Below, one piece after another: positions 9,550 to 33,943 of a stretch of 44,606 nt of DNA (the first letter of the stretch is position 1; every line of letters starts with the position of its first letter). Location: assembly GCF_000313615.1 (NCBI RefSeq), contig NZ_AMZQ01000015.1, forward strand, positions 1 to 44,606, read 5' to 3'. Below the pieces are notes generated by a model. It made no database searches, was not told the origin of the DNA, and saw nothing but the letters and a program-made list of their open reading frames with translations. This DNA comes from Campylobacter showae CSUNSWCD. GTDB taxonomy: Bacteria; Campylobacterota; Campylobacteria; Campylobacterales; Campylobacteraceae. Both the position numbers and the translations under genes were made by a program.

Positions 9550-9669
9550 GCGGAAGTATTTTAAGATGGATTTAAATGTTGCGACGAAAATTTTGTCCCA
9601 AGACTAGACATGCAGTCTGTCGCAGGGCAAAATTTTCTAGCTCATTTAAAGACGCTTAAAAGATGCCGC
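9550..9669 (-). repeat. 120-nt nested-hairpin element, copy 1
   Basis: Nested inverted repeats: GCGG/CCGC (9550-9553/9666-9669), TTTTAAG/CTTAAAA (9559-9565/9655-9661), TTTAAATG/CATTTAAA (9571-9578/9643-9650), AAAATTTTG/CAAAATTTT (9587-9595/9628-9636) and an apical AGAC/GTCT with a five-base loop (9606-9618). The fixed internal loop is TTGCGACG (9579-9586) opposite CTAGCT (9637-9642). It ends 7 bases from the stop of the ThrE small-subunit gene. Strand given as that of the flanking genes; only the structure is seen directly. Confidence 0.8.
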
Positions 9670-9676
9670 GCAAAAT

Positions 9677-10204
9677 TTACTTTTCGCTGGGCTTTCTCGT
9701 CACCAGATCGCACTTGGCGCCGCGGGTAATCATCAACGACTGATCGTAAAATAAAATAAGCACCACAGAAACGCCCACGCCAAGCGCTAGCGAGACCGTC
9801 GTGGTCGTGATCGCGTTATCGAAAAATATAATTAGGTATTCGTTTTTCTTAGCGATATCAGGCTCGTTTAGAAAAGAAAACAGCGCCAAGATGCCTTTAT
9901 ACGCATAGACTCCCGGCACCATCGGCAAAAGCGCCGGAAATGCGATGATCTCGGCCGGCACTTTGAGCCGTTTGGCAAAGAGCATACCCAATATTCCGCT
10001 TAAAAATGAGACGATAAGGGTGGCTACGCTGATGTTAAAAAACCCCATCTGCATGATCCAAAAGCGGCTAGCGTGCGCAAACGCCGCAAGCAGCGCGCAA
10101 AAGGCGAGAGTTCTTTTAGGCGGCGAGCTAGCATAGGCAAAGCCAAGCCCTGCCACCGCGGCAAAAGCGCCGTCTATGAGCGTCGCAGTCAAAAGATCAA
10201 ACAT
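9677..10204 (-). CDS. Threonine/serine exporter, small (ThrE_2 / DUF3815) subunit
   Basis: 175 residues, about five transmembrane helices. The motif FPALLPMVPGVYAYKGI matches the C-terminal half of ThrE exporters, here a separate polypeptide. The N-terminal half is encoded directly upstream (10197-10979) with an 8-base overlap, so the two should form one exporter for threonine or serine, or a related small substrate. The stop is followed at once by a nested hairpin repeat. Confidence 0.88.
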   Translation of the reverse strand: MFDLLTATLIDGAFAAVAGLGFAYASSPPKRTLAFCALLAAFAHASRFWIMQMGFFNISVATLIVSFLSGILGMLFAKRLKVPAEIIAFPALLPMVPGVYAYKGILALFSFLNEPDIAKKNEYLIIFFDNAITTTTVSLALGVGVSVVLILFYDQSLMITRGAKCDLVTRKPSEK

Positions 10205-10979
10205 GTAAAATCTCCGCGCTACTAAGCGAGAGCGTGATATAGACGCCCACCGCTATGCAAAGTATCAGGATGCCTGTACTCACGGCTCTGCTGATACCTA
10301 CAAGCGTGTTGTCGTTTATGATATCAAAGACCGAGTTTATGAGAAAAACGCCCGGCATCAAAAAGAGTATCGACGAGCCGATCGCAACGTCGCTAGTGTG
10401 CGTAAAGCCATAAAATACGCCAAGATAGGCGATAAAAGATACGACAAACGAGGTCAAAACGTACTGGATTTTTAAATTTACGCCCATTTTAGCAAGCGCA
10501 AATTTGAGACTATAGCCAACCAGAGTCGCGAAAAATACGCAAGCTACCGAGCCCATATCGCCGCCAAAAAGCTTGCAAAACGCCGCATTTGCAAAGCTAA
10601 TCAAGACAAGCGAGCTGGCAAATTTATTCGCGCCTATACGCATGACGCCATCAAACTGCTCTTTGGCTTCATCAAGACTCAAATTTTCATCCAATATCCG
10701 CCAGCTAAGCGACGAAAGCTCGGAAATACGGTTAAAGCTCACCTGCCCTATCGGGATCTTTTTCACGTAGGTTCGGCGAAGAGAGTTGTCGGCTGAGTCC
10801 ATAACGCTAATGGTAAAATATTTCACAAAAATGGTCACGCTAACATCAAAGCCGTAGTGCTTAGCTATGCGGTCGACGCACTTTTCTACGCGCGCAGTGT
10901 ATGTGCCAGCGCTCACCATTGCTGTTGTGTATTCGGCGAGGAAATTTGTTAAGATTTGGATATCAGGCTTGGCGTTCAT
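10197..10979 (-). CDS. Threonine/serine exporter, ThrE (DUF1212) subunit
   Basis: 260 residues. A soluble N-terminal domain (about 1-115, with MVSAGTYTARVEKCVDRIA) is followed by four or five membrane helices, including FLMPGVFLINSVFDIINDNT, as in the DUF1212/ThrE family. In two-component ThrE systems this subunit pairs with the small ThrE_2 protein that follows. The gene overlaps its upstream neighbour (10963-11442) by 17 bases, but base composition drops sharply there. Confidence 0.88.
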   Translation of the reverse strand: MNAKPDIQILTNFLAEYTTAMVSAGTYTARVEKCVDRIAKHYGFDVSVTIFVKYFTISVMDSADNSLRRTYVKKIPIGQVSFNRISELSSLSWRILDENLSLDEAKEQFDGVMRIGANKFASSLVLISFANAAFCKLFGGDMGSVACVFFATLVGYSLKFALAKMGVNLKIQYVLTSFVVSFIAYLGVFYGFTHTSDVAIGSSILFLMPGVFLINSVFDIINDNTLVGISRAVSTGILILCIAVGVYITLSLSSAEILHV

Positions 10980-11442
10980 CTTGACTGATCTTAAATTTCA
11001 CAAAAAACAAAATGAGCTGCAGAACAAGCATCACTTTCATCACATATTCGCTAGCGCTATGCATCTTAGCAAACTCCGCTGTCTGCGTCGCCTCTGCGCC
11101 AAGACTTTGAGAGTGCACGATAAAAGGTGTAAAGATAAAGACAAAGCTTAGCGCTAAGGCTAAATTTAAAAATGAGAGCATAAATGTGCTAAATTTCAGC
11201 GAAAATGCGAGCTTTTTTCTTATATCAAAGAGCTCGCTAACTGCCACAAATGCGCTTACAAGTAGCAAAATGTAGTTAAATTTTAAAAATATCTTAGTCA
11301 TCATCTGTCCGCTCATAAAATGCGTAAGCACTCCCTCGCCTATGATGCTTTGTGGGAAAAATATGACTGGTGCGACCAAAATTCCAAGCGTTAGCTCAGT
11401 GCCGATCACCGCCGCTAATAGTAAAAAATATATGCTTTTCAA
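10963..11442 (-). CDS. DUF4149 (TMEM205-like) membrane protein
   Basis: 159 residues with four predicted transmembrane helices (about 4-26, 50-70, 80-105, 133-152). Spacing and the first helix (TELTLGILVAPVIFF) match the DUF4149 family, which has no firm function. It lies 10 bases after prmC on the same strand and overlaps the ThrE gene at its 3' end. Confidence 0.75.
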   Translation of the reverse strand: MKSIYFLLLAAVIGTELTLGILVAPVIFFPQSIIGEGVLTHFMSGQMMTKIFLKFNYILLLVSAFVAVSELFDIRKKLAFSLKFSTFMLSFLNLALALSFVFIFTPFIVHSQSLGAEATQTAEFAKMHSASEYVMKVMLVLQLILFFVKFKISQDERQA

Positions 11443-11452
11443 ATTCTCTCCT

Positions 11453-12265
11453 TTATAGTTTTAATCTTGCGCAAAAACCCCTATCAAAGCCCGCCAAGTC
11501 CTTGTAAAAAGTGCCCTCATAGCCACTAAATTTTAGCGCCATCTCCATGCTCGCTCTTTGATCATAGCCAATCTCGCAGGCGATATGTTTTATGCTGCGA
11601 TTTCTAGCGATAAGGATGATATTTTTTAAAATTTCATCACCCACTTCGCCGCCAAATAGCGCCTCATGCGGCTCGTTTATCACAAATTTATCAAGTTTAT
11701 AATCCTGCGCGATATATGGCGGATTGGACACCAAAATGTCGATATCACCTGAAATTTCATCGATGTATGAGCACTTTACAAACTCTATCTTCTCGCTTAC
11801 ATTAAATTTAAGCGCATTTTTTTTGGCTAAATTTAGCGCCTTTTCGTTTATATCGGTGGCTACTATTTTGGCGTTTGTTTTAAGAGCAAGCATGACGCTT
11901 ATTATCCCGCTACCAGTGCCGATCTCAGCGATCTTTGGCACTTCATACGAGCTTGCGATCTCTAGCACTTTATCGACTAAAATTTCAGTCTCCGAGCGAG
12001 GTATCAAAACCCCACTTTCTACATCAAACTCCAGCCCATAAAAGCCAGCCTTGCCAGTTATATATTCAAGCGGCTCATAGTTTTCAAAGCGCTTTACAAG
12101 GGCAAAGTAGCCGTTCTCGTCAAATTCGATCTTTTGGTTTAAAAATATCCACTCTACACTCACATCAAGGTAGCTCATGAGCAATATTTTAGCCACCCTG
12201 CTTGGGTTTTCACAAAGCGGCTTAAGCCTTAAATTTGCCTGCTTTAAAGCCTCTTCAACTCTCAT
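11453..12265 (-). CDS. prmC: Peptide chain release factor N5-glutamine methyltransferase
   Basis: 270 residues. SAM-binding motif EIGTGSG (114-120) and the catalytic NPPYI (181-185) identify PrmC (HemK), which methylates the GGQ glutamine of RF1/RF2. The N-terminal helical domain (1-70) and the SGVLIPRSETE motif are present. It overlaps the upstream M48 protease gene by 11 bases. In this genome prfA is not adjacent. Confidence 0.95.
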   Translation of the reverse strand: MRVEEALKQANLRLKPLCENPSRVAKILLMSYLDVSVEWIFLNQKIEFDENGYFALVKRFENYEPLEYITGKAGFYGLEFDVESGVLIPRSETEILVDKVLEIASSYEVPKIAEIGTGSGIISVMLALKTNAKIVATDINEKALNLAKKNALKFNVSEKIEFVKCSYIDEISGDIDILVSNPPYIAQDYKLDKFVINEPHEALFGGEVGDEILKNIILIARNRSIKHIACEIGYDQRASMEMALKFSGYEGTFYKDLAGFDRGFCARLKL

Positions 12266-13457
12266 TTTCTAGCTCATTTATCCGCTCAAAGAGGCTTGGG
12301 TGCGAGTGATAAACAAATGAGTAAAGCCAGTGCGACTTTGGAAACGCTTTGTTTTCGCTACCAAGCTTGGTTAGGGCGTTTATCATGTCGGTTTTGTTTG
12401 AAATTTCTTTTGAAAACCTATCTGCGCCAAATTCATTTTTACGGCTAAAATATGAGATGATAGGCGAGAAAAGAAAGCTAAAAATAGGCGAGAAAAGCAC
12501 CAAAAAGATGATGATACTAGCGCCGTTTTGTCCAAGCCCTATCGCCTCGTAAGCACCTACGCCCACATTTCCAAAGATGAAAAATAGACAAAAGAGCATA
12601 ACCGCACTTAGCGCTATCATTTTTATGATGTCTTTATGCTTAAAGTGCCCAAGCTCGTGACCCAAAACCGCCACGATCTCCTCGGTGCTTAGCTTTTTTA
12701 TGAGCGTGTCAAAAAGCACCACTCGCTTTGTCGCTCCAAGCCCGCCAAAATAGGCGTTTAAGCGGTTGTCACGCTTGCTAGCGTCTATCGTAAAGACGCC
12801 ACTACTTTTAAAGCCGCATTTTGCAAGCAGACCCTCTATCTTGCCTTTTAGTTCGCCATCTTCAAGCAGCGACATCTTATTAAAGATAGGTGCAATGAGT
12901 GTTGGGTATATCAAATTTATAATTAAAGCGATGCCAAAACTTAGCAAAAATGCCCAAAACCACCAAAAATTTCCAAGAAAATTTATACATAAAAGCACGA
13001 GCCAGACAAAGGCCGAGCCAAAAATGAGCATAAGAGCTAGTGACTTAATGCTATCAAGCAAAAATATCTTTGCGCTCATATTTGAAAAACCAAGTTTTTT
13101 ATCTTTAACAAAGCTCTCATAGATGCTTAGCGGTAGATCAAGAAGCGATGAGATCAGTAAAAAGCTCATCACAAATATGATATTTTCAAACGTAGTACCA
13201 TCTTTTAGGCAAGCGTCTGAGAGCATTTTTAACCCAAAGCTGATCCACGCAAAGAAAATGATAGCGTGGTAGATGAGGCTAAAAATTTCAAATTTTTGAT
13301 TTGTCACGGCGGCAACTGCGGCGTTTTTGTATTCGTTCGCTTCAAGCACCACTGGCTCATTTTTAGCCTGCGCTCTTACAAAGCTGATCTGTAAATTCGC
13401 TAAAAAAAGCTTAAAAATCACATAAAAAATGTAGATAAATAAAAGTGTATAAAACAT
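12255..13457 (-). CDS. M48-family (Ste24-like) membrane metalloprotease
   Basis: 400 residues. The zinc motif HELGH (267-271) and third ligand in NEFGADRF (about 338) sit among six to seven transmembrane helices. Length and topology match the CAAX prenyl protease/Ste24 type rather than HtpX. The bacterial substrate is unknown; a role in membrane protein quality control is an inference. It overlaps prmC downstream. Confidence 0.9.
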   Translation of the reverse strand: MFYTLLFIYIFYVIFKLFLANLQISFVRAQAKNEPVVLEANEYKNAAVAAVTNQKFEIFSLIYHAIIFFAWISFGLKMLSDACLKDGTTFENIIFVMSFLLISSLLDLPLSIYESFVKDKKLGFSNMSAKIFLLDSIKSLALMLIFGSAFVWLVLLCINFLGNFWWFWAFLLSFGIALIINLIYPTLIAPIFNKMSLLEDGELKGKIEGLLAKCGFKSSGVFTIDASKRDNRLNAYFGGLGATKRVVLFDTLIKKLSTEEIVAVLGHELGHFKHKDIIKMIALSAVMLFCLFFIFGNVGVGAYEAIGLGQNGASIIIFLVLFSPIFSFLFSPIISYFSRKNEFGADRFSKEISNKTDMINALTKLGSENKAFPKSHWLYSFVYHSHPSLFERINELENES

Positions 13458-13465
13458 ATTCTCCC

Positions 13466-14584
13466 TTAAATTTCATAAAGACTAAAGCAACCATAGTCCG
13501 TTCTAACTGCGAGCTTGCCATCTATAAATTTAGCCTCGCAGCTCTTTACGACATGATCTAGCGTAAATTCCGCCATCACATCGCCACTTTTTAGATTGGC
13601 GGCGTATGCCCTGCTTTGATCTATCACTACAAGCTTACCAGCTTTGCTGTCTAGGCAAAATTCGCTCGCTCTTAGGTATTCGTCCTTTATCCAAGGCTGC
13701 TTTGAGACTTTTGCGCTTTTGATATCTACGCAAAATAGCTTGTTTTCAAGATACTTTCTAACTAAAAGTGTCTTTTTGTCTAAAAAGCAAATTTTATCAA
13801 GCGCTCCAAATTCAGCCGCTATGACACTTAAAATTTCGCCATTTTTTGCGTTTAAAATTTGCACTTCGTTCTCTTTGGTGCAAAGCGCAAGCATGCTAGC
13901 ATCAGCGTTTAGCGCCGCACAAAGTATCGGTGTGTAGCTTTTTTCGCTGCATTTATACTCGCCGATCTTTGAAATTTTGCCATCTCTAAAAGCAAAAATT
14001 TGCCCAAACATACCAAAAACTGCCACCCCATTTGAAGCACAGATAAAGCTTGCTATCTCGCTACTTCGCTTGAGATTTTGCTCGGCTGAAATTTGGCGAA
14101 ATTTAGCATTACTTGGCTCAAAAATGTAAATTTCATGATCAAGGTCTAAAAGTAAATTTTCATCCACACGCTGGGCGTCCCACGCAAGCGGCTTTGGCAA
14201 GGCAATCTGCTCTTTTATAAGGCCATTTTTATCAAGCCTAACCAAAAGATCATCCAGCATGCCACCATCTTTTTGTCCGCCACTTTTATAAACGTAAATT
14301 TCATCTCTCACACTTGCAAACGAGAGCGCACCAGTGTATCCACCGCCGATATAAACGTGCATGCTCGCTTCTCCTGCCTTTGCTTCGCTATCTTGCAGGA
14401 CAAAGCCCTTTTTTAGGCTCTCCCACTCTTTTTTGACGCAGGCTTTTTTGGCCTCTTGCTCGCTTGCAAATTCTTTCTTAGTCTGCTTTGTTTTAGCGCA
14501 TTTTTGGCTCACGCTAACTAAAGCTTTATCCTCTACGCTAAGTCTTAGGCGCTCAGTGCTATCAAAATTTACAAGCTCTCGCAT
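13466..14584 (-). CDS. Beta-propeller-like hypothetical protein with WGR-like N-terminus
   Basis: 372 residues, no signal peptide. The first 65 residues (with KEFASEQEAKKACVKKEWES) resemble the end of a WGR domain. After that come short repeated beta segments, such as ALNADASMLALCTKENEVQI then NAKNGEILSV, which suggests a WD40/PQQ-type propeller. Function is unknown. It is 8 bases from the M48 gene and 3 bases from the NSS transporter gene, so it is probably in one transcript. Confidence 0.6.
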   Translation of the reverse strand: MRELVNFDSTERLRLSVEDKALVSVSQKCAKTKQTKKEFASEQEAKKACVKKEWESLKKGFVLQDSEAKAGEASMHVYIGGGYTGALSFASVRDEIYVYKSGGQKDGGMLDDLLVRLDKNGLIKEQIALPKPLAWDAQRVDENLLLDLDHEIYIFEPSNAKFRQISAEQNLKRSSEIASFICASNGVAVFGMFGQIFAFRDGKISKIGEYKCSEKSYTPILCAALNADASMLALCTKENEVQILNAKNGEILSVIAAEFGALDKICFLDKKTLLVRKYLENKLFCVDIKSAKVSKQPWIKDEYLRASEFCLDSKAGKLVVIDQSRAYAANLKSGDVMAEFTLDHVVKSCEAKFIDGKLAVRTDYGCFSLYEI

Positions 14585-14587
14585 ATT

Positions 14588-15961
14588 TTACTTCAAAAAG
14601 TTGTCGTAAAAACTACTGATAAATAGCACCAAAATGACAAAAGGCACGATAAATTTGATGTAGAAAAACCAAATATTTATAAGTTTTGCGTATTTTTCGC
14701 TGCCTTGCAATATCTCTTTTTTAGCCTCATCTTTTAGCACCCAGCCAACAAATACAGCACATCCAAGCGAGGTTAGCACGAAAAATATCGTCGCGCTTAT
14801 CGCGTCGTATGCGTCAAAGATATTTTTACCAAAAACCGTGACGTGGCTTAGCAAATTTGTAGCCATTAGTGATGGTAAATTTCCTAGCACGAAAATAACG
14901 CTAAGCACTAAAAATATCGCTTTTTTGCGCTTTATCTTAAATTTCTCTTGCAGCGTAGTAATGATCACTTCATATATCGGTAACGACGTCGTAAGCGCAG
15001 CGATCATAAGAAGCGCGAAAAACGCCACCGCAAAAAATCCACCAAACGGCATGTGCGAAAAGACGATCGGAAGCGACTTGAAAACTAGGCTAGGACCGCT
15101 ATCTGGCGAGACGCCGTAGCTAAAAAGCGACGGAAATATCATAAAGCCAGCAAGCACGGCTATGACGGTGTTTAAGACGCCTGTGATGATAGAAATTTTA
15201 ACTAGCCCTTCGTCTTTTTTCACAAAACTTGAGAGCGTTATCATCACGCCAAATCCAAGTGAGAGCGCAAAGAAAACCTGCCCCAAAACATCGACAAAAA
15301 GCTTTAAATTTATCTTTGAAAAATCAGGCGTTAAGTAGAATTTCACGCCATCCATCGCGCCATCAAGAGTGATGTTTTTAGCGATCATGACGAGCATTAA
15401 GATAAAAAGAAGTGGCATTAGATATTTTGCTGAGCGCTCGATGCCGCCAACTGCACCTTGCACCAAGATAGCGTAGTTTACAAGCACAAAAACAAGGGTC
15501 GCAAAGCTGATGGCTAGCGGGTTGCTGACGATATTTTGCTCGTAAAATGCGCTAGTTTGCTCAAAGCTCACGATATGCGAGAGATCAAGCAAACCAAATG
15601 AAATTTGAGCGATATAGTTTAAAACCCAGCCTCCGATAACCATATAATAAGCCATGATGCCAAATGCGCCAACAAGCCCCATCCAACCGACTATCTGCCA
15701 CTTTTTGCTGATCTTTTTGCCATTTATCGTGCCGCCAAATGCGTCTACGGCGTTGCATTTTAGGCGCCTACCGATGGCGTTTTCAACCAAAATCATAGGA
15801 ATACCAATGACTATCATCGCTATGCAAAACACAAGAACATAGGCCCCGCCGCCGTTTTGACCGACTAAGTAAGGAAACCGCCACGTCGCACCAAAGCCGA
15901 CCGTAGCCCCTGCAACAGCTAAAATATATGTAAGTCTTGAACTCCACGATCTTCTATCCAT
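14588..15961 (-). CDS. Sodium-dependent NSS-family amino acid transporter
   Basis: 457 residues, about eleven or twelve transmembrane helices. TM1 with GATVGFGATWRFPYLVGQNG is the sodium and substrate site signature of the neurotransmitter:sodium symporter family (LeuT, TnaT, MhsT). Bacterial members take up amino acids such as tyrosine, tryptophan or leucine with sodium; the substrate here cannot be read. A minus-strand TATAAT (15988-15993) precedes it. Confidence 0.93.
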   Translation of the reverse strand: MDRRSWSSRLTYILAVAGATVGFGATWRFPYLVGQNGGGAYVLVFCIAMIVIGIPMILVENAIGRRLKCNAVDAFGGTINGKKISKKWQIVGWMGLVGAFGIMAYYMVIGGWVLNYIAQISFGLLDLSHIVSFEQTSAFYEQNIVSNPLAISFATLVFVLVNYAILVQGAVGGIERSAKYLMPLLFILMLVMIAKNITLDGAMDGVKFYLTPDFSKINLKLFVDVLGQVFFALSLGFGVMITLSSFVKKDEGLVKISIITGVLNTVIAVLAGFMIFPSLFSYGVSPDSGPSLVFKSLPIVFSHMPFGGFFAVAFFALLMIAALTTSLPIYEVIITTLQEKFKIKRKKAIFLVLSVIFVLGNLPSLMATNLLSHVTVFGKNIFDAYDAISATIFFVLTSLGCAVFVGWVLKDEAKKEILQGSEKYAKLINIWFFYIKFIVPFVILVLFISSFYDNFLK

Positions 15962-15987
15962 GCTATCTACCTTTGTGAAAAATAGGG

Positions 15988-16556: not shown

Positions 16557-16599
16557 TTGTCTCCTTTTTGTAAAGTCTCTACACCTTTGTAAAAGAGGG

Positions 16600-22660: not shown

Positions 22661-22666
22661 AAAAAT

Positions 22667-25218: not shown

Positions 25219-25356
25219 TTGTCTCCTTTTGCGAGATTGCCGTAAATTTTATAAAAACGTAAATTTTAGCAAGCCGCTTGCTTGTTTATTTCACACGCTA
25301 AACTCGCGGCAAAGAATTCGCAAAAACCGTAAATTTAAACAAAAAGGCGTTATATC
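25219..25356. other. Spacer between the broken gene and the tandem repeats
   Basis: AT-rich and rich in AAATTT. No gene, clear promoter or terminator seen beyond the repeat elements that follow. Confidence 0.4.
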
Positions 25357-25452
25357 TTGAGATGATTTTTGAAGTTGCGACGTAAAAATAAAACGGAGCA
25401 GACCGGTCGTCCGTGAGTATTCATTTTTACTAGCCCTTCAAAAAGCGCTCAA
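25357..25452 (-). repeat. Nested-hairpin element, copy 3
   Basis: TTGAG/CTCAA (25357-25361/25448-25452), TTTTTGAAG/CTTCAAAAA (25366-25374/25436-25444), TAAAAAT/ATTTTTA (25383-25389/25423-25429), apical GAC/GTC with a five-base loop. The fixed loop is TTGCGACG (25375-25382) opposite CTAGCC (25430-25435). All stems differ in sequence from copies 1 and 2 yet pair perfectly. TATATCTTGA before it matches the equivalent position of copies 2 and 4. Confidence 0.75.
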
Positions 25453-25503
25453 AAAACTACTCAAAAGTCACGGCGAATTTAAAATTTATCTAAAAAATGC
25501 AAA

Positions 25504-25626
25504 AGATATTATATCTTGGAGAGATTTTAAGAGTTACGAAGCGAAAAATAGGCGTAGACTGGACAAGCCAGTCCGTCAAGCCGATTTTTCGCGAGTTCCG
25601 TTAAAAGCTCCCGAGAGATAATATCT
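25504..25626 (-). repeat. Nested-hairpin element, copy 4
   Basis: AGATATTAT/ATAATATCT (25504-25512/25618-25626), GGAG/CTCC, TTTTAA/TTAAAA (25525-25530/25601-25606), CGAAAAAT/ATTTTTCG (25542-25549/25584-25591), apical GACTGG/CCAGTC around ACAAG (25557-25573). The internal loop is TTACGAAG opposite CGAGTT, the most diverged of the four. Its outer arm runs into the hisD stop codon (25625-25627). Copy 3 lies 51 bases away, so these two form a tandem. Confidence 0.75.
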
Positions 25627-26920
25627 ATTTTAAAGCTTCTAGTCTAACCGCGACCGAACGCTTATGCGCCCCCAGCCCCTCGGCATCGGCTAACTTCATG
25701 CATGCGTTTCCTAGCTCGCTTATGCCTTTTGCGTTTAGCGAGATGAGCGAGGTGCGCTTCATAAAATTTTCAACCCCGAGAGGCGAATAAAACCTCGCGC
25801 TACCGCCCGTAGGCAGCGTATGGTTTGGCCCTGCTAGATAGTCGCCCATCGCTTCAGGCGTAAAGTGTCCGATAAATATCGCGCCCGCGTGCCTGATCTG
25901 CGCGGCCAGCTCCATCGCGTCATTTGTGGCGATCTCTAGGTGCTCGGGCGCTAGCTCGTTAGCCAGCCTCACGCACTCATCCAGGTCGCTAGCTACGATG
26001 ATAGCGCCCTTTTTATCGATGCTAACCTGCGCGATGGGCTGTCTAGCTAGAGTCTTGATCTCCTCGTTGATATGCCTTTGCACTGCCGCACCGAAGGCCT
26101 GATTTGGCGTGATAAGTACAGCGCTAGCCATCTCGTCGTGCTCGGCCTGCGAGAGCAGATCCACGGCGATGTGGCGAGGGTCGGCGCTCTCGTCGGCGAT
26201 GACGCAGATCTCGCTAGGGCCCGCGATCATATCGATATTTACCTCGCCGTAGACGAGTTTTTTAGCCGTCGCGACGTATATGTTGCCAGGGCCCGTGATG
26301 ACGTCGGTTTTTTTGATCGTTTGCGTGCCGTAGGCCATCGCCGCTACCGCCGAGGCGCCGCCGACTTTATAGGCTTCCTTGATGCCGCAGATATGCATGG
26401 CTGCTAGCAGTAGCGTATTTACCTTGCCCCCAACGGCAGGCGTGCAGACTACTATCTCCCCAACGCCCGCAACCAGGGCCGGGACGGCGTTCATGAGAAG
26501 CGAACTAGGATAGGCGGCCTTACCTCCAGGGATATATAGTCCCGCGCGGTCTAGCGGGGTGTACTTGGCGCCTAGCAAAACGCCGTGCTCATCGTGCTCC
26601 ATCCAAGTTTTTGGTAGGCTTTTTTCGTGGTAGCTTTTGATGCGCTCAAAGGCTAAATTTAGAGCGTTTCGTAGGCAGCTATCTATACCGTCGTAGGCCT
26701 TTTGCATCTCTTCGGTGCCGATTTTTAGGCTATTTGCGTCAGGTTTCCAGCGGTCAAATTTTTCTATCTGCTCAAAAAGCGCCTCGTCGCCTCTAGCGCG
26801 CACGTCGTCCAGTATCTGCGAAACGGCGGGCGTAACCGCGCTCATGTCGCCGTTTGAGCGGTTTACCAAAGCCGCAAAATAGTCCTTAAAATTTTCGTTG
26901 CTAGTGAGTAAAAACTTCAT
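25625..26920 (-). CDS. hisD: Histidinol dehydrogenase
   Basis: 431 residues, normal length. Motifs include GPGNIYVATAKKLVYGEVNI, then DMIAGPSE, and LLSQAEHDEMASAVLIT, whose Gln and His are zinc ligands. The glutamate and histidine of NELAPEHLEI are in the active site. It oxidises histidinol to histidine. No other his genes are nearby. The ATG overlaps the stop of the ACC-deaminase-like gene by 4 bases. Confidence 0.96.
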   Translation of the reverse strand: MKFLLTSNENFKDYFAALVNRSNGDMSAVTPAVSQILDDVRARGDEALFEQIEKFDRWKPDANSLKIGTEEMQKAYDGIDSCLRNALNLAFERIKSYHEKSLPKTWMEHDEHGVLLGAKYTPLDRAGLYIPGGKAAYPSSLLMNAVPALVAGVGEIVVCTPAVGGKVNTLLLAAMHICGIKEAYKVGGASAVAAMAYGTQTIKKTDVITGPGNIYVATAKKLVYGEVNIDMIAGPSEICVIADESADPRHIAVDLLSQAEHDEMASAVLITPNQAFGAAVQRHINEEIKTLARQPIAQVSIDKKGAIIVASDLDECVRLANELAPEHLEIATNDAMELAAQIRHAGAIFIGHFTPEAMGDYLAGPNHTLPTGGSARFYSPLGVENFMKRTSLISLNAKGISELGNACMKLADAEGLGAHKRSVAVRLEALK

Positions 26921-28041
26921 CTCGTCTCCTTAAATTTTCTTTCGTATCTTAGTTTTTGACTGATATTTCCGAGCACGCCGCCTTGGTGGATGTATAAAAT
27001 CTCGTTTTTAAATGCGCCAAGGTTTGCCATCATCGTTAAAAAGCCCACAGGATCGTAAATGAGCTCAAACTCTATCCCCGTTTGTTCGCATACTTCGCGC
27101 CAAATTTGATAAAGCTCGGGCTTTAGATCGCCGAAATGATATTTTTTCGGCGGCGGCAAAATGTGCGCCTTTGAGTTTGGCGTCAGCTCCTCGATCTCGC
27201 TTTTTAGGTAGTCTGCGTCGCCCACGCAAGGACAGGTGTAGACGTCAAATTTGACATGCTTAGCCAAAAACGCCGCCGACGTGCCCGTGCCCGAGGGCAA
27301 AAATATATCAACGGTCTTGCCCTCCGCATCCGCCCAGCACTCTATCTGCCTAGCCTGCGAGATAAAGCCCGCCTCGGCCTGCGGCTGCCAAACGCCCTCG
27401 TTTATAAAAAGCGAATCGCCGATGAAGCAATCCTGCGCAGCGGACAAATTTGAGCTTGTTTGATCTGCGGATTTTGTTAAATTTAAGTTTTTATGGCTTA
27501 TGAATTCGCCAAAATTTGCGCTTGCGAGCTTTGCCGATCCGTCAAATTTGTTCAAATTTTCTCTGCCTAGATTTTGTAAATTCGGCGCGATCTCGGCTTG
27601 CGAATTCGGCATATTTTTCGCACTTAAATTCATACCCGCAAAACCTAGTCGTTCATTAAATTTACTTAAATTTGATCCGTTTCTACCAGAACCGCACGTC
27701 AAATTTACAGCCTCATCGCCGTAAATCTCACCCTCTTTTAGGCTAGCTAGTTCGTAAGCTAGAGCCTTAGCCCGTGCCCGTCTATCTTTATTTATATAGA
27801 TTTTCATCCCGTTTCCAAGGGCAAATTTAAAATTTCCGATCGGATTTTCTGCTAAATTTGAGTTTAAATTTGAAACTACGTAGTGAAACTCCAGGCCCCT
27901 CATCTTGGCAAAGACGCTTAGGCTATACATCGCGTTTGACTGGCTAGAGCCGTAGCTAACGACGCGCTTTATACTGCCTAGACCAGCATGCAGGAAATAC
28001 TCTAGCTTTCTAGCCTTGTTGCCGTTAAATTCGCCGTCCAT
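26917..28041 (-). CDS. ACC deaminase / D-cysteine desulfhydrase-family PLP enzyme with a large insertion
   Basis: 374 residues from the first ATG. DGEFNGNKARKLEYFLHAGL holds the PLP lysine; VVSYGSSQSNAMYSLS, SLFINEGVWQPQAEAGF and LPSGTGTSAAFLA follow the family order. Between YGDEA (about 111) and DSLFINEG (about 212) lie about 100 extra residues rich in Asn, Ser, Leu and Lys, where relatives have a few residues. The conserved KFNGLEFYVLRDDL is in frame just before the ATG, so the true start lies farther upstream, but no ATG, GTG or TTG is available there. Substrate unknown; D-cysteine is likely. Confidence 0.75.
   Translation of the reverse strand: MDGEFNGNKARKLEYFLHAGLGSIKRVVSYGSSQSNAMYSLSVFAKMRGLEFHYVVSNLNSNLAENPIGNFKFALGNGMKIYINKDRRARAKALAYELASLKEGEIYGDEAVNLTCGSGRNGSNLSKFNERLGFAGMNLSAKNMPNSQAEIAPNLQNLGRENLNKFDGSAKLASANFGEFISHKNLNLTKSADQTSSNLSAAQDCFIGDSLFINEGVWQPQAEAGFISQARQIECWADAEGKTVDIFLPSGTGTSAAFLAKHVKFDVYTCPCVGDADYLKSEIEELTPNSKAHILPPPKKYHFGDLKPELYQIWREVCEQTGIEFELIYDPVGFLTMMANLGAFKNEILYIHQGGVLGNISQKLRYERKFKETR
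27420..27725. repeat. AAATTT-rich insertion inside the PLP-enzyme gene
   Basis: About 300 bases with roughly eight AAATTT palindromes encode the extra Asn/Ser/Leu/Lys segment of the protein at 26917-28041. The frame is kept. It has the composition of the intergenic DNA in this window, not of the flanking gene. Confidence 0.5.
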
Positions 28042-28081
28042 CAGATCGTCGCGAAGTACGTAAAACTCGAGTCCGTTAAAT

Positions 28082-29149
28082 TTAGTCTTTTGAATGCTTT
28101 TGATTTTGCCGCTCCAAGAGATCTTGCATCTCTTTCATCGACTCTTTGTCCGAGATCGAAAATTTGATCTCGATGCGCCTTGAGGCGTCGGGGTCTTCTT
28201 TGCCATTTTTCATCACCAGATCGCTAAAGCTACGTCCGCTAGCGATGAGATAGTGCTCTAGGCGCTTGTCTTTGTTCCACGAGTAGATAAAGTCTAGTAC
28301 CGAATACGCGCGCTTTTGCGACAGATCAAGGTTGTACATGTAGCTACCAACGGAGTTTGTATGCCCCTCGATCACGATCCTGTCGATGTGTTTTGCGATC
28401 TCTTCGTTATTTAAAATCGCCTCAAAATAAGTCTGCAAGATTTCTTTTAGACGTGCCTTTGCTTCGTCTCTTAGTTCATAAGATCCCGTGTCAAAAAGTA
28501 TAGACTCAGGCAGCGACACGACACCCGAGCTTGGATCTATACTGACCTTGTTTCCAAGCTTAGCGCGTAAATTTGATATGACATTTGAGCGAAGCGAGCT
28601 GATGTCTTTTATCTTGTCTTTTGTTTTGTTAAAATCCTCTTCCAGTGCGGTAAATTTTGAGATTTCATCGCCGTATTTTGCATTTAGCTCATTTAGCGCC
28701 TCATCTTTTTGCGCTAAAATTTGCCCCAGCTGCAGCACTCTATCCTGCAAATCCGCGATAGTTTTATTCGCGTCGTTTAGATTTATCTCGTAGGTTTGGG
28801 TTAAATTCGTGAGTTCGTTTTTCTCTTTTTTGACGCCTTCAAGCATCTCGTTTACGAGCCTGTTTATGTCGGCAAGCTCTTTATTTTCGCTCTTTGCGCG
28901 GTCCAAATTTGAAAAAATTTCTTTTATGACATTTTCTTTACGAACGAGCTCGCTTTGAGACGAGGCGATTTGCTTTTCACGCTCGCTTAAGTCTTTTTGT
29001 AGTTTTGCCAGATCGCTTTGGCTAAGGACGTATTTTACGACAACGGCGCCGATGATGAGCATAAAAACAAACATCAGCCCAGCCATCAGGTCCGCATACG
29101 ATATCCAAAAGGTCTGGTCTCCGCTTTTGTTCTCGTTACGCGTTTTCAT
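28082..29149 (-). CDS. MotB/OmpA-domain protein (Cj0599-type)
   Basis: 355 residues. One N-terminal transmembrane helix with the proton-channel aspartate (FWISYADLMAGLMFVFMLI), a long coiled coil (about 40-195) and a C-terminal OmpA-like peptidoglycan-binding domain (about 210-345) with VIEGHTNSVGSYMYNLDLSQ. It pairs with the MotA-like protein upstream (14-base overlap). The order nth-peb4-fba-this pair is that of C. jejuni Cj0595-Cj0599. It is not the flagellar MotB by context. Role unproven, perhaps envelope-linked force generation. Confidence 0.85.
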   Translation of the reverse strand: MKTRNENKSGDQTFWISYADLMAGLMFVFMLIIGAVVVKYVLSQSDLAKLQKDLSEREKQIASSQSELVRKENVIKEIFSNLDRAKSENKELADINRLVNEMLEGVKKEKNELTNLTQTYEINLNDANKTIADLQDRVLQLGQILAQKDEALNELNAKYGDEISKFTALEEDFNKTKDKIKDISSLRSNVISNLRAKLGNKVSIDPSSGVVSLPESILFDTGSYELRDEAKARLKEILQTYFEAILNNEEIAKHIDRIVIEGHTNSVGSYMYNLDLSQKRAYSVLDFIYSWNKDKRLEHYLIASGRSFSDLVMKNGKEDPDASRRIEIKFSISDKESMKEMQDLLERQNQKHSKD

Positions 29150-30473
29150 CTAGCATACTCGCCTTTTCGATGGTTTGCAAGATCTCATTCGCCTCTTTAT
29201 CAAGCTCGTCGATGTCTTGCTTTAGCCCTTCAATGAGCGCGCTATTATCATCATAAGCTCCGATTGCTTCGTCGTCAAAAGCCTTTTTAAATGCCTGTAC
29301 GCCGTCAATTAAGCTCTCTTTAAAGCCATCCATTGCAAGTTTTTGTTTTTCTAAGATTTCACTACTAAATTTAGAAAGAGACTCACTGAAATTTTTAACA
29401 TTATACTCTAGTTCGCCCACGCTCTTTTCGAGCTTTGCGATACGCTCGCCGCCCACATCATAGAGACGGTTGTACTGCTCGGCAAATTTTAGTTGCATAT
29501 CTTTGATGTTACCGTTAAATTTATTGATAACGTTCAAGATTTCGGCATGGACTTTGATAAGATCTTTTTGATCTTTCGAGGATTTTAGCAGCGTATTCAT
29601 CGTTTGCTTGATGTGTTCGCCGCTTAGCTTGACAGCTTCTTCTTCGTTTTTCAAGATATTTGTAAAAGTTTTAAATTTAGCCTCGATAGTCTTATCCAGC
29701 TCCTCAAAGAACTCGGCATTACTAACGTGCTCAAAGATCACTCCGATCTTTTCAAAGTGTCTTAAATTCTCTTGCAAATATCTTCTATCAAGCTCCTCTT
29801 TCGTCCAGAAAAAGCCGCTCGTAGCGTTTTTCTGTCTTCGCACTAGCGTTTCAAATTTGCTCGTTCCATATTTTTCAAAAAATATCCACCAAAGCGCTAG
29901 AAAAATACCGTAAATAGAGACGTAAAACGCAGTCGCTACGCCGCTAAGAAGGGTTGAAATTTCAGTTTCGAGCTCGGTAGTATTTGAAGAGTTAAACTCC
30001 GGCATAGAAACCGCGATACTGATAAATGTTCCCAAAATACCCAGCATCGGGAAGATGCCCGCACCCACGGAAGCGAAATTTTCATTACGTAAATTTCTAG
30101 TATAGTAGGCGACAAATTCATCAAAACCGGCATTTGATTTCGTATCTTTACCGATCACTAAAAGATGTTTGATGATGTATTCTTTTAAATTTCGCTTGAA
30201 ATCAGCTCCGCTTTGCTCAAAATAACAACAAGCAAGCTCGGCGCTATTTTTAGCAAAGATTAGCGAAATCACCCAAATAATACCCATCATAACGACCGTG
30301 TGTAGGCCGATTTGAAAATCTATATACCCAAAAAACCCAAGAAGCGCGACGATATATATCGCCGTCGGCAAAAATATGATTTTCGTATATACGAAAAAAG
30401 ATTGCCTGCCTTTTACCTCAGGCAACGCCAAATCAGTGAAATTATCGTTTCTCGCTTCTTTTTTGGGTTCCAT
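29136..30473 (-). CDS. MotA/TolQ/ExbB-type proton channel protein (Cj0598-type)
   Basis: 445 residues. Membrane helices at about 28-48, 52-70, 140-160 and 185-210. ASVGAGIFPMLGILGTFISI and LSGVATAFYVSIYGIFLALW match the MotA/TolQ/ExbB core. A long cytoplasmic C-terminal coiled coil (about 240-445) follows. It should form a stator-like complex with the MotB-like partner. Synteny with C. jejuni supports a housekeeping role. Confidence 0.87.
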   Translation of the reverse strand: MEPKKEARNDNFTDLALPEVKGRQSFFVYTKIIFLPTAIYIVALLGFFGYIDFQIGLHTVVMMGIIWVISLIFAKNSAELACCYFEQSGADFKRNLKEYIIKHLLVIGKDTKSNAGFDEFVAYYTRNLRNENFASVGAGIFPMLGILGTFISIAVSMPEFNSSNTTELETEISTLLSGVATAFYVSIYGIFLALWWIFFEKYGTSKFETLVRRQKNATSGFFWTKEELDRRYLQENLRHFEKIGVIFEHVSNAEFFEELDKTIEAKFKTFTNILKNEEEAVKLSGEHIKQTMNTLLKSSKDQKDLIKVHAEILNVINKFNGNIKDMQLKFAEQYNRLYDVGGERIAKLEKSVGELEYNVKNFSESLSKFSSEILEKQKLAMDGFKESLIDGVQAFKKAFDDEAIGAYDDNSALIEGLKQDIDELDKEANEILQTIEKASMLDENA

Positions 30474-30481
30474 TGTAAACC

Positions 30482-31546
30482 TTAATTTCTATTTAAGCAG
30501 TTTAAATCTTCAAAAGCGGTTAATAGGCGCTTTACCATCGACTCCTCGCCGCTCCGTAGCCATTTGCGCGGATCGTAGTATTTTTTATTTGGCTTATCCT
30601 CACCCTCTGGGTTGCCGATCTGGCCTTGCAAGTATGCTCTATTTTTAGCCTCATACTCGCGCACACCGTCCCAAAATGCCCACTGAGTATCAGTGTCAAT
30701 GTTCATCTTAATAACGCCGTAGCTTACAGCATTTTTGATATCTTTTAGCTCACTGCCACTTCCGCCGTGAAAGACGAAATTTACGGGTTTATCGGTCGGA
30801 GTTTTAAATTTATCCGCGACATAAGCTTGCGAGTTTTTCAAAATTTCCGGTCGCAACACGACGTTGCCCGGCTTATAAACGCCGTGAACGTTGCCAAAGC
30901 TCGCCGCTATACTAAATCTATCGCTGATTTTACTTAGTCGTTCATAAGCCTGCGCGACGTCTTCTGGCTGCGTATATAAAAGCGCGTTATCAACGCCCGT
31001 ATTATCCACGCCGTCCTCTTCGCCGCCAGTTACGCCAAGCTCGATCTCTAGGCTAATACCAAGCTCGCTAAGCTCTTTTAGATACTTCTCGCAAGTGCTT
31101 AAATTTTCCTCCAAGCTCTCTTCGCTAAGATCAAGCATATGCGAACTAAAAAGCGGCACGCCGTGAGCCTTTTTGTATTCGCGGCTAAATTTAACCAGCT
31201 CGTCGATCCAAGGCAGTAGCTTTCTAGCCGCGTGATCGGTGTGCAGGATCACGGGCACGCCGTAAGCCTTAGCTAGCAGGTGCACGTGTTGCGCGCCTGC
31301 TACTGCGCCTAGTACATCGGCGTTCCCGCAAGCTTTGCCAGCATAAAAGCCGGCTCCGCCGTTACTAAATTGGATGATAACGGGTGAGTTAGCCGTCTTT
31401 GCCGCCTCTAAAACGGCATTTACCGAGTCGCTTCCGACCACGTTTACCGCAGGTATGGCAAAGCCCTGCTCCTTTGCGTATTTATACAACCTAGTTACGT
31501 CATCGCCGCTTAAAACGCCGGCTTTTACTACGTCTAAAACACCCAT
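30482..31546 (-). CDS. fba: Fructose-bisphosphate aldolase, class II
   Basis: 354 residues, matching the FbaA (long class II) length. Zinc and substrate motifs: VILHTDHAARKLLPWIDELV, EIELGVTGGEEDGVDNTGVD, NVHGVYKPGNV and NFVFHGGSGSELKDIKNAVS. It interconverts fructose 1,6-bisphosphate and triose phosphates, mainly in the gluconeogenic direction in Campylobacter. It lies 10 bases after peb4. Confidence 0.96.
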   Translation of the reverse strand: MGVLDVVKAGVLSGDDVTRLYKYAKEQGFAIPAVNVVGSDSVNAVLEAAKTANSPVIIQFSNGGAGFYAGKACGNADVLGAVAGAQHVHLLAKAYGVPVILHTDHAARKLLPWIDELVKFSREYKKAHGVPLFSSHMLDLSEESLEENLSTCEKYLKELSELGISLEIELGVTGGEEDGVDNTGVDNALLYTQPEDVAQAYERLSKISDRFSIAASFGNVHGVYKPGNVVLRPEILKNSQAYVADKFKTPTDKPVNFVFHGGSGSELKDIKNAVSYGVIKMNIDTDTQWAFWDGVREYEAKNRAYLQGQIGNPEGEDKPNKKYYDPRKWLRSGEESMVKRLLTAFEDLNCLNRN

Positions 31547-31556
31547 TTTATCGACC

Positions 31557-32369
31557 TTATTTATATTCTACTTTAGCTTTTGAGCGAAGCTCGTCGCCTC
31601 TTTTTCTGATATCGTTTCTAAATTTCTCCATCTTTAGGTTGCCCTCTATTTGAGGTTTAACCTCGTTTAGACCCACGGTACCGGCAGCTTTACTATCCTC
31701 TTTTAGGATTACGTGGTAGCCGAAATTTGATTTAACAGGTTTTTGAGTTACTTCGCCTTTTTTAAGTGCAAATGCAGCGTCCGCGAAAGGTTTTACCATT
31801 TGAGATTGGCCAAACCATCCTAGTTCGCCGCCGTTAGCCGCAGAACCTTGATCGGTAGATTTAGATTTAGCTAGCTCTTCGAATTTTTTAACCAGCTCGT
31901 CGCCTTTTAGACCTTTTAGCGCAGCTATTATATCGTTTGCGTCTTTTTCAGTAGCCACTAGGATATGTTTAGCTCTTACTTGTGCAGGCACGGCAAATTC
32001 GGCTTTATTTTTGTTATAAAAGTCGCTGATCTCGCCTTCGCTAACTTTGATATTGTCAAAAATTCTCTTCATCCAAAGATCAAGCACAAGGTTATTTTTT
32101 AGCTCTTCAAGCGCAGCTTTGTATTCGTCGCTCTTATCTAGTCCGCTCTTTTTAGCCTCTTCTAAAAGTAGTTTTCTATTAATAGTTTCGTCGATCACCT
32201 TTTTTTGAGTATCTTTAGGTAGTTGCTCTAGGGTTACGCCAGGCATCGCAGCAAGCGTGAAAGCTACGTCCTTATCGGTTACTTTTGTTCCGTTTACAGT
32301 GGCGTACTCCGCCGCACTTAGGCTTAGAGCCGCAGCCAAACTAAGAGATGCGAATAAAATTTTATTCAT
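31557..32369 (-). CDS. peb4: PEB4-type periplasmic peptidyl-prolyl isomerase/chaperone
   Basis: 270 residues. Signal peptide 1-20 (ending LSLSAAEYA), a SurA-like chaperone region (about 21-130) and a parvulin domain (about 130-225) with VRAKHILVATEKDAN, GGELGWFGQSQMVKPFADAA and NFGYHVILKED. PEB4 (Cbf2) of C. jejuni assists outer-membrane protein folding. A minus-strand TATAAT (32404-32409) lies upstream. Confidence 0.95.
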   Translation of the reverse strand: MNKILFASLSLAAALSLSAAEYATVNGTKVTDKDVAFTLAAMPGVTLEQLPKDTQKKVIDETINRKLLLEEAKKSGLDKSDEYKAALEELKNNLVLDLWMKRIFDNIKVSEGEISDFYNKNKAEFAVPAQVRAKHILVATEKDANDIIAALKGLKGDELVKKFEELAKSKSTDQGSAANGGELGWFGQSQMVKPFADAAFALKKGEVTQKPVKSNFGYHVILKEDSKAAGTVGLNEVKPQIEGNLKMEKFRNDIRKRGDELRSKAKVEYK

Positions 32370-32403
32370 CTTTGTTCCTTAAATTTAGATTTTTGCGAGG
32401 GTG

Positions 32404-32439
32404 ATTATAGCAGGAAAGTCATTAAATATAAGTTATAAT
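32404..32439. promoter_or_regulatory. Divergent -10 boxes for peb4 and nth
   Basis: TATAAT on the minus strand at 32404-32409 (35 bases before the peb4 ATG) and on the plus strand at 32434-32439 (40 bases before the nth ATG). Both are perfect -10 hexamers. Confidence 0.65.
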
Positions 32440-32478
32440 TCATCGAAAATTTAAATAAAAACGGCTAAAATCGGCGCC

Positions 32479-33114
32479 ATGAGAACAAAAAAAGATATAA
32501 ACGCTATCAAAAATTTATTTTTAGAAAATTTCAAAGACGCGGGCAGCGAGCTTAAATTTCGCAACCTCTACGAGCTGCTCGTTTGCGTGATGTTAAGTGC
32601 GCAGTGCACCGATAAGCGCGTAAATTTGATCACGCCTTCGCTTTTTGAGGCCTACCCGGACGTAGCAAGCCTAGCGCAGGCAAATCTCGGTAGCGTAAAG
32701 GCGCTCATAAATTCCTGTAGTTTTTTTAATAACAAAGCAGAAAATTTGATCAAAATGGCAAAGAGCGTGATGAGCGAATTTGACGGTGAGATACCAACGA
32801 CCGAAAAGGAGCTAATGAGTCTAGCCGGCGTAGGTCAAAAGACCGCTCACGTCGTGCTGATCGAGCATTTCGGATCAAATTTGATGGCCGTGGATACGCA
32901 CGTTTTTCGCGTGGCTCACAGGCTTGGTCTTAGTAGTGGCAAGACGCCCGAAGCCGTCGAGCTTGATCTAACCAAAGCCTTTAAAACGCAGCTAAACACG
33001 CTTCATCAAGCGATGGTGCTTTTTGGGCGCTACACCTGTAAGGCGGTCAAGCCAAACTGCAAAGAGTGCTTTTTAAACGAGCTGTGTAGTAGCAAAGATA
33101 AGAAATTTCCTTAA
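32479..33114 (+). CDS. nth: Endonuclease III
   Basis: 211 residues. Helix-hairpin-helix LMSLAGVGQKTAHVVL with the catalytic lysine, catalytic aspartate in AVDTHVFRVAHRLGL, and the 4Fe-4S cluster CKAVKPNCKECFLNELC (C-x6-C-x2-C-x5-C). It removes oxidised pyrimidines. The 3' end overlaps the convergent gene by 4 bases. Confidence 0.97.
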   Translation: MRTKKDINAIKNLFLENFKDAGSELKFRNLYELLVCVMLSAQCTDKRVNLITPSLFEAYPDVASLAQANLGSVKALINSCSFFNNKAENLIKMAKSVMSEFDGEIPTTEKELMSLAGVGQKTAHVVLIEHFGSNLMAVDTHVFRVAHRLGLSSGKTPEAVELDLTKAFKTQLNTLHQAMVLFGRYTCKAVKPNCKECFLNELCSSKDKKFP

Positions 33115-33680
33115 TCGCCAAAAAAATTTTTCTTTGAGAGATACGGGTATTGCAGCTGCGACGAGCCATCTTCGTCTATCAAATTTAACGCCTCGCCGAA
33201 TGTGCCTTGCTCTACAAGCTCGCTATTTAAAATCGTATGCTTTGAAATAGCTTCGATAAAGCGCTCAAAATCACTCCGCGAAATAAAATGCCCGCCGAGG
33301 ACAAATATCGGTTCCGAAGTTTTGCGATCGTAAAATTTAATACTACTTTTATCGACAATCGTCCACTCTTTTCTTATGACAAATTTAATATCAGCGTATA
33401 AAAACTCTAAATTTTTACTATTTTTCTGCAAGACGATGCTATTTTCCGTCAAAAACACTTTATCTATGCGAAATATTGCAAACGCCTCAAGCAAAAACAT
33501 AAAAACAGCGATTCCGAAAACAATAAAATAAAGAGTCTTGACCTCGAAAACAAGGTCATCAGCAGTCGCAATCGCATAAAAAACCAAAGCGGCGCAAGGC
33601 AAAAATATGATTATTATTGAGATTAAATTATTTTTGGCGTATCTTGCGTCCAAACGAAAAATGTAGTTATCTTTTTGCAA
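33111..33680 (-). CDS. Small membrane protein with PH-like domain
   Basis: 189 residues. Two adjacent transmembrane helices (about 18-38 and 48-68) followed by a beta-rich domain (FRIDKVFLTENSIVLQK, FVIRKEWTIVDKSSIKFY) like bacterial PH domains. Not recognised beyond that. It is preceded on its upstream side by a cluster of structured repeats (33731-33943). Confidence 0.6.
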   Translation of the reverse strand: MQKDNYIFRLDARYAKNNLISIIIIFLPCAALVFYAIATADDLVFEVKTLYFIVFGIAVFMFLLEAFAIFRIDKVFLTENSIVLQKNSKNLEFLYADIKFVIRKEWTIVDKSSIKFYDRKTSEPIFVLGGHFISRSDFERFIEAISKHTILNSELVEQGTFGEALNLIDEDGSSQLQYPYLSKKNFFGD

Positions 33681-33730
33681 ATTTTGTCCTTAAAATTTTA
33701 AAAATGCCTTTGGCTAAATAAAATTTTTAA

Positions 33731-33760
33731 CATTTTCAAGATGCAGGTCTCGGCGAGTAA
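33731..33760 (+). repeat. RTGCRGGTCTYGG motif, copy B1
   Basis: CATTTTCAAGATG folds as a mini-hairpin and is followed by CAGGTCTCGGCGAGTAAAA. The same arrangement occurs at 37031-37065 (minus) and 37216-37251 (plus). Confidence 0.55.
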
Positions 33761-33806
33761 AATTTGAAGCCGAATTTACAAATTTGGTAAACTTGGCCTC
33801 AAATTT
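33760..33806. repeat. 20-bp imperfect hairpin
   Basis: Arms 33760-33779 and 33787-33806 match at 17 of 20 positions, the other three being transitions that give G.U pairs on one strand or the other. The loop is AAATTTG. It lies between motif B1 and repeat copy 2. Confidence 0.6.
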
Positions 33807-33823
33807 GGATTTAGAAACAACGA

Positions 33824-33943
33824 GGCGAAGTATCTTGCGACGAATTTAAATGTTGCGACGAAATTTTCGACCGAAGATAGAACATATAGTTCATCGAGGG
33901 GGGAAAATTTCTAGCTCATTTAAAGGCGCGGAAGAGACAAGCC
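33824..33943 (-). repeat. 120-nt nested-hairpin element, copy 2
   Basis: GGC/GCC (33824-33826/33941-33943), TCTT/AAGA with GCG/CGC (33833-33839/33927-33935), TTTAAATG/CATTTAAA (33845-33852/33917-33924), AAATTTTC/GAAAATTT (33861-33868/33903-33910), apical GAAC/GTTC around ATATA (33880-33892). Fixed loop TTGCGACG (33853-33860) opposite CTAGCT (33911-33916). It is exactly the length of copy 1 and ends 8 bases from the pepD stop. Confidence 0.8.

Follow-up and report, generated by a model that had tools for sequence, protein, structure and literature searches.

Structured imperfect palindromes are known from several bacterial systems. The attC sites of integrons are conserved in structure above sequence, serve as a substrate in the form of a folded single strand and lie beside stop codons, and the enterobacterial repetitive intergenic consensus (ERIC) is a long imperfect palindrome. 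The latter, also called intergenic repeat unit (IRU), is described as a 127 bp enterobacterial intergenic repeat (PMC2759123). Rickettsia palindromic elements (RPEs) occur both between genes and in frame within unrelated genes, with a similar peptide in unrelated proteins (PMC10969869). Repetitive extragenic palindromes (REPs) are palindromes of 20–40 bp with a GTAG or CGTC tag unpaired at one end; GTAG REPs are reported in all divisions of Proteobacteria, epsilon included, while CGTC REPs, including RPE-4 and RPE-6, apparently do without a dedicated transposase (PMC3733652). In E. coli, ribosomes reportedly stall at REPs that lie at most 15 nt from a stop codon (PMC12306157). Here, we describe a hairpin repeat of about 122 bp (with its ends) that is present in four copies in a contig of Campylobacter showae CSUNSWCD (NZ_AMZQ01000015.1, positions 1 to 44,606; this whole stretch of 44,606 nucleotides is hereafter the window) and that recurs in most genomes of the genus.

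Our results suggest that this repeat is an undescribed kind of mobile DNA cassette. More precisely, we estimate at about 0.6 the probability that it is a palindromic DNA element, dispersed and mobile, whose structure is under selection and which is exchanged at short common ends between recurring positions beside genes, which we call slots. Its structure, its copy number, its recurring slots, the exchange of its cores and its in-frame copies are established by the comparisons reported below. Because of core exchange and in-frame insertion, we infer that DNA is what moves, and covariation leads us to think that the fold is probably required for this movement. A covariance model built from eight copies (R1) recovers the four copies of the window where a first-pass annotation, made from the letters alone, had located them, and all of them on the plus strand:

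9548..9670, plus strand: copy 1 with its ends (111.4 bits; model bounds 9554–9663)
25344..25460, plus strand: copy 2 (83.4 bits, the weakest of the four; model bounds 25350–25456)
25503..25627, plus strand: copy 3 (97.5 bits; model bounds 25509–25618)
33822..33945, plus strand: copy 4 (116.2 bits, the top score of the four; model bounds 33828–33937)

The consensus of the element with its ends reads AAGGCGAAGTATYTTGAGATG ... CGCTCAAAAGACAAGCCG, in which the outer ends AAGGCGAAGTAT and GACAAGCCG flank a core of 109 positions. The stems of the core are nested, its internal loops are asymmetric and purine-rich, and its apical stem is capped by a loop that mostly has five bases. Compared with the first-pass annotation, the consensus reaches farther by about 6 nt on the left (AAGGCG) and by 7 nt on the right (CAAGCCG). 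That annotation had also described the TTGCGACG/CTAGC loop as invariant. The motif is indeed present (the pattern TTGCGACG N35–64 CTAGC occurs three times in the window vs. 0.14 expected), but, as judged by eye from an alignment, it is one of several subfamily motifs, along with GTTTTGAAG/AAAATC and GTTGTGCAG/CAAACTC, and the two-pair helix inside it (NN) covaries, alternating between GC/GC, TT/AA and GT/AC. In the same alignment, the open internal loops (GTT-NN-GAC/GAA/GCA vs. TA/GA/AA-NN-T) are retained while whole stems change on both sides. At three loci (L016, L038 and L097), a small hairpin-like stretch is inserted inside the left end, just left of the core, and L137 starts alike.

As the annotation had stated, the stems differ between copies yet stay paired. 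Two-sided changes affect 22 of the 37 pairs in a MAFFT alignment of the eight copies, 33 of 37 across 126 aligned matches (122 distinct; 97.8% of the cells paired) and 31 of 37 across the 114 strong matches (110 distinct; 97.9% paired). The covariation score amounts to 0.607 for the 126 matches, vs. 0.207 for shuffled and at most 0.117 for slid controls, and to 0.621 for the 114 strong ones, vs. 0.213 and at most 0.131, respectively; since the structure guided both alignments, the comparison with slid controls is a flattering one. For Watson-Crick and position counts, 14 of the 126 rows, which score below 39 bits and mostly correspond to the same places on the other strand, were dropped. Because covariation exceeds both the shuffle and the slide controls, selection maintaining a folded strand is supported. 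This partly supports the earlier proposal of a folded RNA or single-stranded DNA under selection, a mobile DNA element fitting the data better than a selected RNA (see below). Simple AT-rich palindromes are ruled out by the same controls. Regarding coding selection, 32 of 113 genus copies have no stop in plus frame 0, vs. 8% of the shuffles, but copy lengths vary modulo 3 (56, 38 and 19), and therefore no such selection is read into these frames.

In the genome of C. showae CSUNSWCD, R1 yields 51 matches at E ≤ 1 and 48 at E ≤ 0.01, so that, in the search advocated by the first-pass annotation, the hits are far from confined to the four loci of the window. Some of the weakest matches are about 139 nt long and may represent a sister family, while a pattern search of the whole genome returned nine matches, two of which (L002 and L004) lie outside the R1 matches. 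Genus-wide, matches at E ≤ 0.01 occur in 44 of 48 genomes (counting that of CSUNSWCD): 48–58 in each of four copy-rich genomes (G000, G035, G038 and G039), 14–19 in three and 2–8 in the other 37. The R1 alignments drew on 100 sources each, without the loci that overlap the window, without L118 (which is identical to L117) and without many loci that share a slot in related genomes. Three of the copy-rich genomes, G035, G038 and G039, were sampled by 20, 20 and 17 regions, for totals of 51, 58 and 48 matches, respectively. One locus, L024, has two copies in opposite orientation (at 1501 and 1872) between two genes, which we take to be miaA and queH.

When grouped by adjacent protein, 104 copies fall into 53 slots, defined as clusters of genes whose proteins are >55% identical; a few clusters contain two copies from a single genome. 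Of the 31 slots that occur in at least two genomes, 18 have cores less than 75% identical between genomes, even though the adjacent proteins are 74–99% identical, and in 9 of these 18 the spacing is identical in every genome where the slot is seen. For example, in the slot shared by L138, L113 and L134, the flanks are orthologous up to CAAGGCGAAGTAT and again from GAC(A/G)AGCCGCTA, with three different cores in between. On the other hand, L024, L115 and L136 have identical cores beside three different genes in three genomes, and two more pairs share the same core across slots. Among 88 copies of the four copy-rich genomes, 27 find their best match in another genome in a core that is at least 97% identical but occupies a different slot. 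Without the identity threshold, the best match is at a different slot for 68 of 88 copies, a number inflated by partners outside the sample; the 27/88 and 18/31 figures are independent of partial sampling. Cores are thus replaced in place between slots, also across species.

The region beyond the stop codon of uvrB was compared at 30 loci. Five loci (L141–L143, L168 and L169) carry this repeat, L155 and L160 carry a variant that R1 also detects, L170 has the next gene in place of the repeat, and most other loci (within L144–L167) show, just after the stop codon, repeats of further families whose ends are similar in part. A repeat of this kind folds on the same strand (z −5.5), but a second model built from 114 copies (R2) detects the three such loci tried either weakly or not at all (E 0.003 for L145, 0.19 for L144 and nothing for L154). 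One of the further families is also found in the left flank of L084.

More widely, R2 was run on 398 genomes of the order and has matches (E ≤ 1e-4) in 37 of them, 20 of which belong to other genera, counts that are lower bounds because only nine candidates per genome were scored; full-length matches reach 2.5e-15 in another family. A single pattern scan of genome contigs, a collection that may omit records close to the genome of the window, returned no more than two records, both from Helicobacter and one of them from Helicobacter marmotae. We examined 28 R2 hits, 27 of them from outside the genus and one (L182) from the genus itself; L218 comes from a truncated copy of the L187 contig. Of these 28, 13 are embedded in frame within open reading frames (ORFs) of 300 aa or more, an arrangement seen in relatives such as Helicobacter and in none of the 114 copies of the genus. 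These 13 hits correspond to six gene sites:

valS, two genomes
guaA, three genomes (L186 in G409, L193 in G369, L204 in G425)
a gene of the saccharopine dehydrogenase family, four genomes (best NCBIfam match, below cut-off: carboxynorspermidine synthase)
an Eco57I/TaqI-type methylase gene, two genomes
a type III methylase gene
a gene for one unassigned protein

Family scans covered seven of these 13 proteins. In a search of 11 valS genes, an insert of about 45 residues is absent from seven and present in two, the other two showing an insert with canonical ends but a core scarcely seen by R2 (E 0.0009 and 0.0015). A nearly identical element peptide appears in two unrelated proteins (L185 and L217), and both the reading frame and the strand of the element differ between in-frame sites. 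One genus copy (L051) lies beyond the stop codon of a gene that is none other than the orthologue, without insert, of the saccharopine-dehydrogenase-family gene. The open frame of L186 contains GNAT and methyladenine glycosylase (Tag) domains before the ATP-pyrophosphatase part of guaA, with the element just ahead of the latter; L193 reads alike in the guaA frame, the domain families having been run on L186 alone. In L187, the saccharopine-dehydrogenase-family frame holds further inserts, one of them with a repeat-like peptide, CCHSERSEES.

Back in the window, three of the four copies face the stop codon of a gene on the minus strand, and an extra left arm of about 100 bp, which accompanies many copies in the genus, precedes copy 4:

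9677..10204, minus strand: ThrE-like gene (Threonine/Serine exporter ThrE, PF12821), whose stop codon (9677) faces the right end of copy 1
25625..26920, minus strand: hisD (histidinol dehydrogenase, PF00815), whose stop codon (25625) faces the right end of copy 3
33731..33821, plus strand: left arm (CATTTTCAAGATGCAGGTCTCGG...) of copy 4, found with many copies but not all
33952..35229, minus strand: M20-family peptidase gene (PF01546), whose stop codon (33952) faces the right end of copy 4

Copy 1 is placed between a minus-strand ORF (8376–9398) and the ThrE-like gene (9677–10204), while copies 2 and 3 stand in tandem beyond the stop codon of hisD (25344–25627). The gap between core and stop codon is 13 nt for copy 1, 6 nt for copy 3 and 14 nt for copy 4. 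At the site of copy 1, the element is also present in G039 and G040 but is not beside the gene in G038 and G033, and no plasmid sequence matches the 201 bases around this copy. Folding exceeds that of dinucleotide shuffles by far on both strands for copies 1, 3 and 4 (plus-strand z −6.5, −8.0 and −6.2). Upstream of the ORF 8376–9398, a 15-pair terminator-like hairpin on the minus strand (9474–9510) is distinct from copy 1.

The main rival of a mobile DNA element is an RNA element, the hairpin acting in the transcript, either after the stop codon, where it would slow ribosome release, block 3′ decay or aid termination, or else 5′ of the ribosome-binding site, while both its spread and its homogenisation would be due to ordinary gene conversion only. 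We regard it as rather unlikely, but the positions of the copies are in line with it. In a set of 112 copies, with genes (called as longest ORFs) to the right of 108 and to the left of 105, the right end lies within 37 nt of a gene in 93 of 108 cases, mostly at a stop codon, vs. 13 of 105 for the left end. When the right neighbour is a minus gene, met by its stop codon (75 copies), 68 copies are within 37 nt and 18 at exactly 7 nt, a gap that puts the stop codon immediately after CAAGCCG; when it is a plus gene (33 copies), 25 are within 37 nt of the start, just 5′ of the ribosome-binding site. The spacing conserved in 9 of the 18 slots with differing cores and the stalling reported for E. coli REPs near stop codons (PMC12306157) point in the same direction, as does the composition of the non-canonical pairs, in that the ratio of G.T to A.C depends on slot orientation. 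Pooled over the family, the plus strand has 82 G.T vs. 26 A.C (excluding the pair of columns 14–107, mostly U.G, which holds 57 G.T), and 51 vs. 26 after collapsing repeated local contexts (p 0.006), so that the plus-strand fold is mildly favoured over the minus one. The remark of the first-pass annotation on A.C mismatches of the plus strand that turn into G.U on the minus strand is therefore not valid for the family as a whole, and its lean towards a minus-strand RNA finds no support. Split by slot class, the collapsed ratio of G.T to A.C is 20:2 next to plus genes (p 0.0001) and 32:18 next to minus genes (p 0.065), vs. 6:6 in other places; the first two classes differ from each other (Fisher p 0.023), which leaves room for a share of RNA-level selection. 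Nevertheless, opposite strands would be the RNA in these two classes, and yet G.T is not rarer than A.C in minus-gene slots (32:18). In-frame copies inside genes of other genera also speak against an RNA role, and a terminator scan around the copies of the window, albeit unsuited to long interrupted stems, marked none of the hairpins in full and only a 5-pair piece inside copy 2. Since copies occur in both orientations relative to the adjacent transcript, since cores are exchanged and since copies are in frame elsewhere, a mobile DNA element fits better.

Pairing could also be kept without selection, if template switching corrected the arms of a quasi-palindrome and so mimicked covariation. 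Both the near-complete pairing (Watson-Crick in 3759 of 3974 lettered cells) and the block-wise change of the two arms would agree with such a process, but arm correction should erase the asymmetric internal loops, which are similar and unpaired in distant copies, and identical cores at unrelated loci imply exchange rather than local mutation; we thus hold this explanation for improbable. Even less probable is a recombination site of a known system, i.e., an integron attC or a REP (or bacterial interspersed mosaic element, BIME) mobilised by a REP-associated tyrosine transposase (RAYT). Like our repeat, attC sites are structured imperfect palindromes beside stop codons. The same is true of REPs (PMC3733652, PMC12306157), and GTAG REPs are reported from epsilon Proteobacteria (PMC3733652), but a length of 109–122 nt instead of 20–40 bp and the lack of a GTAG or CGTC end tag do not fit them. 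Moreover, the Y1 (IS200-like) transposase (PF01797) was found in none of the 48 genus genomes (vs. 5 of 14 controls), and the integron integrase (TIGR02249) was over cut-off in none of the 48; below cut-off, TIGR02249 has hits in all 48 and in all 14 controls, as expected from other tyrosine recombinases. RAYT/REP and integron attC were rejected for the genus on these respective grounds.

If the repeat is indeed a mobile DNA element, a folded single strand, more likely the plus one, would be recognised by the moving machinery. In the genus, the right end of the recurring slots adjoins either a stop codon or the sequence immediately 5′ of a ribosome-binding site. Cores are swapped in place between slots, also across species, with the short ends as borders of the exchange, while in other genera of the order the copies found in frame within ORFs would be translated as RPEs are. 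The exchange itself would be performed by a putative recombinase or by host recombination after DNA uptake, which could by itself produce the swaps, short as the common ends are. A more specific version, which we advance only tentatively, is a slot-and-cassette system, where chromosomal slots at gene edges would exchange structured cassettes in place, both within a species and between species, at two ends of about a dozen bases through dedicated machinery reading the folded single strand, with in-frame entry into protein genes in other families of the order. Several observations weigh against a mobile DNA element. No transposase or recombinase was identified, the two enzymes mentioned above (the integrase over cut-off) being found in none of the 48 genus genomes, and a search of viral contigs with a single exact pattern, which represents one subtype, gave no match. 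Empty sites that are both recent and clean did not turn up, nor is any target-site duplication readable; of the hallmarks of a miniature inverted-repeat transposable element (MITE), namely terminal inverted repeats, a target-site duplication and a matching transposon, neither a duplication nor a transposon was seen. Some copies have spread inside larger repeats, given that L117 and L118 (G038) sit in a stretch identical over 3108 bases (at least 3.1 kb); similarly, L074 and L080 (G042) are 99% identical over 3126 bases. In-place exchange could be ordinary gene conversion without special machinery. Regarding the plus-strand fold, copy 2 (25350–25456) beats dinucleotide shuffles on the minus strand only (z −4.1, vs. 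−1.4 on plus), the strand test was run on an alignment fitted to the plus-strand model, and the uneven G.T excess across slot classes hints at some RNA-level selection.

The repeat bears on an old puzzle posed by RPE-like elements, namely how a repeat without a known transposase spreads, keeps its fold and enters enzyme genes in frame. With many copies per genome and recurring slots whose contents differ between species, its mode of movement is testable by comparing strains, and the system offers enzymes both with and without the inserted peptide. Furthermore, the group includes culturable, naturally transformable bacteria.

As far as searched, the repeat does not belong to a described family, in agreement with the first-pass annotation. 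Rfam has no match in the window at the gathering threshold, which rules out a known Rfam RNA, and at a relaxed threshold the two copies submitted (L010 and L106) had only sub-threshold hits (best E 0.09 and 0.12). NCBIfam contains palindromic-element models, none of which was hit by the six element peptides and the four host proteins scanned. Searches of the open-licence literature found no account of an element of this kind from Campylobacter or Helicobacter, although the tables of two papers, a survey of stem-loops in C. jejuni and H. pylori, among others (PMC1590033) and a count of REPs in H. pylori (PMC12306157), may hold a related entry.

Among the systems described, attC sites differ by their arrangement in arrays, as our repeat forms dispersed single sites, and no integron integrase scored over cut-off in the genus. 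REPs and BIMEs are likewise extragenic hairpins, often near stop codons, and CGTC REPs appear likewise to lack a transposase; nonetheless, our repeat is longer (109–122 nt vs. 20–40 bp), has several internal loops and, as judged by eye from the alignment, shows no GTAG or CGTC tag at its ends. ERIC/IRU, compared by description, is similar in length and intergenic position, but to our knowledge has no in-place core exchange. The closest likeness is to RPEs: here too, a short palindrome (about 122 bp, within their range of about 100–150 bp) is found both between genes and in frame in unrelated genes, and nearly the same peptide occurs in unrelated proteins (L185 and L217). The element would appear to work like RPEs, by analogy, without necessarily being one: it belongs to another phylum, its reading frame differs between hosts, and its cores are exchanged at recurring slots, which we do not know to be the case for RPEs. 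This in-place exchange of cores at recurring slots is the unusual part of the system.

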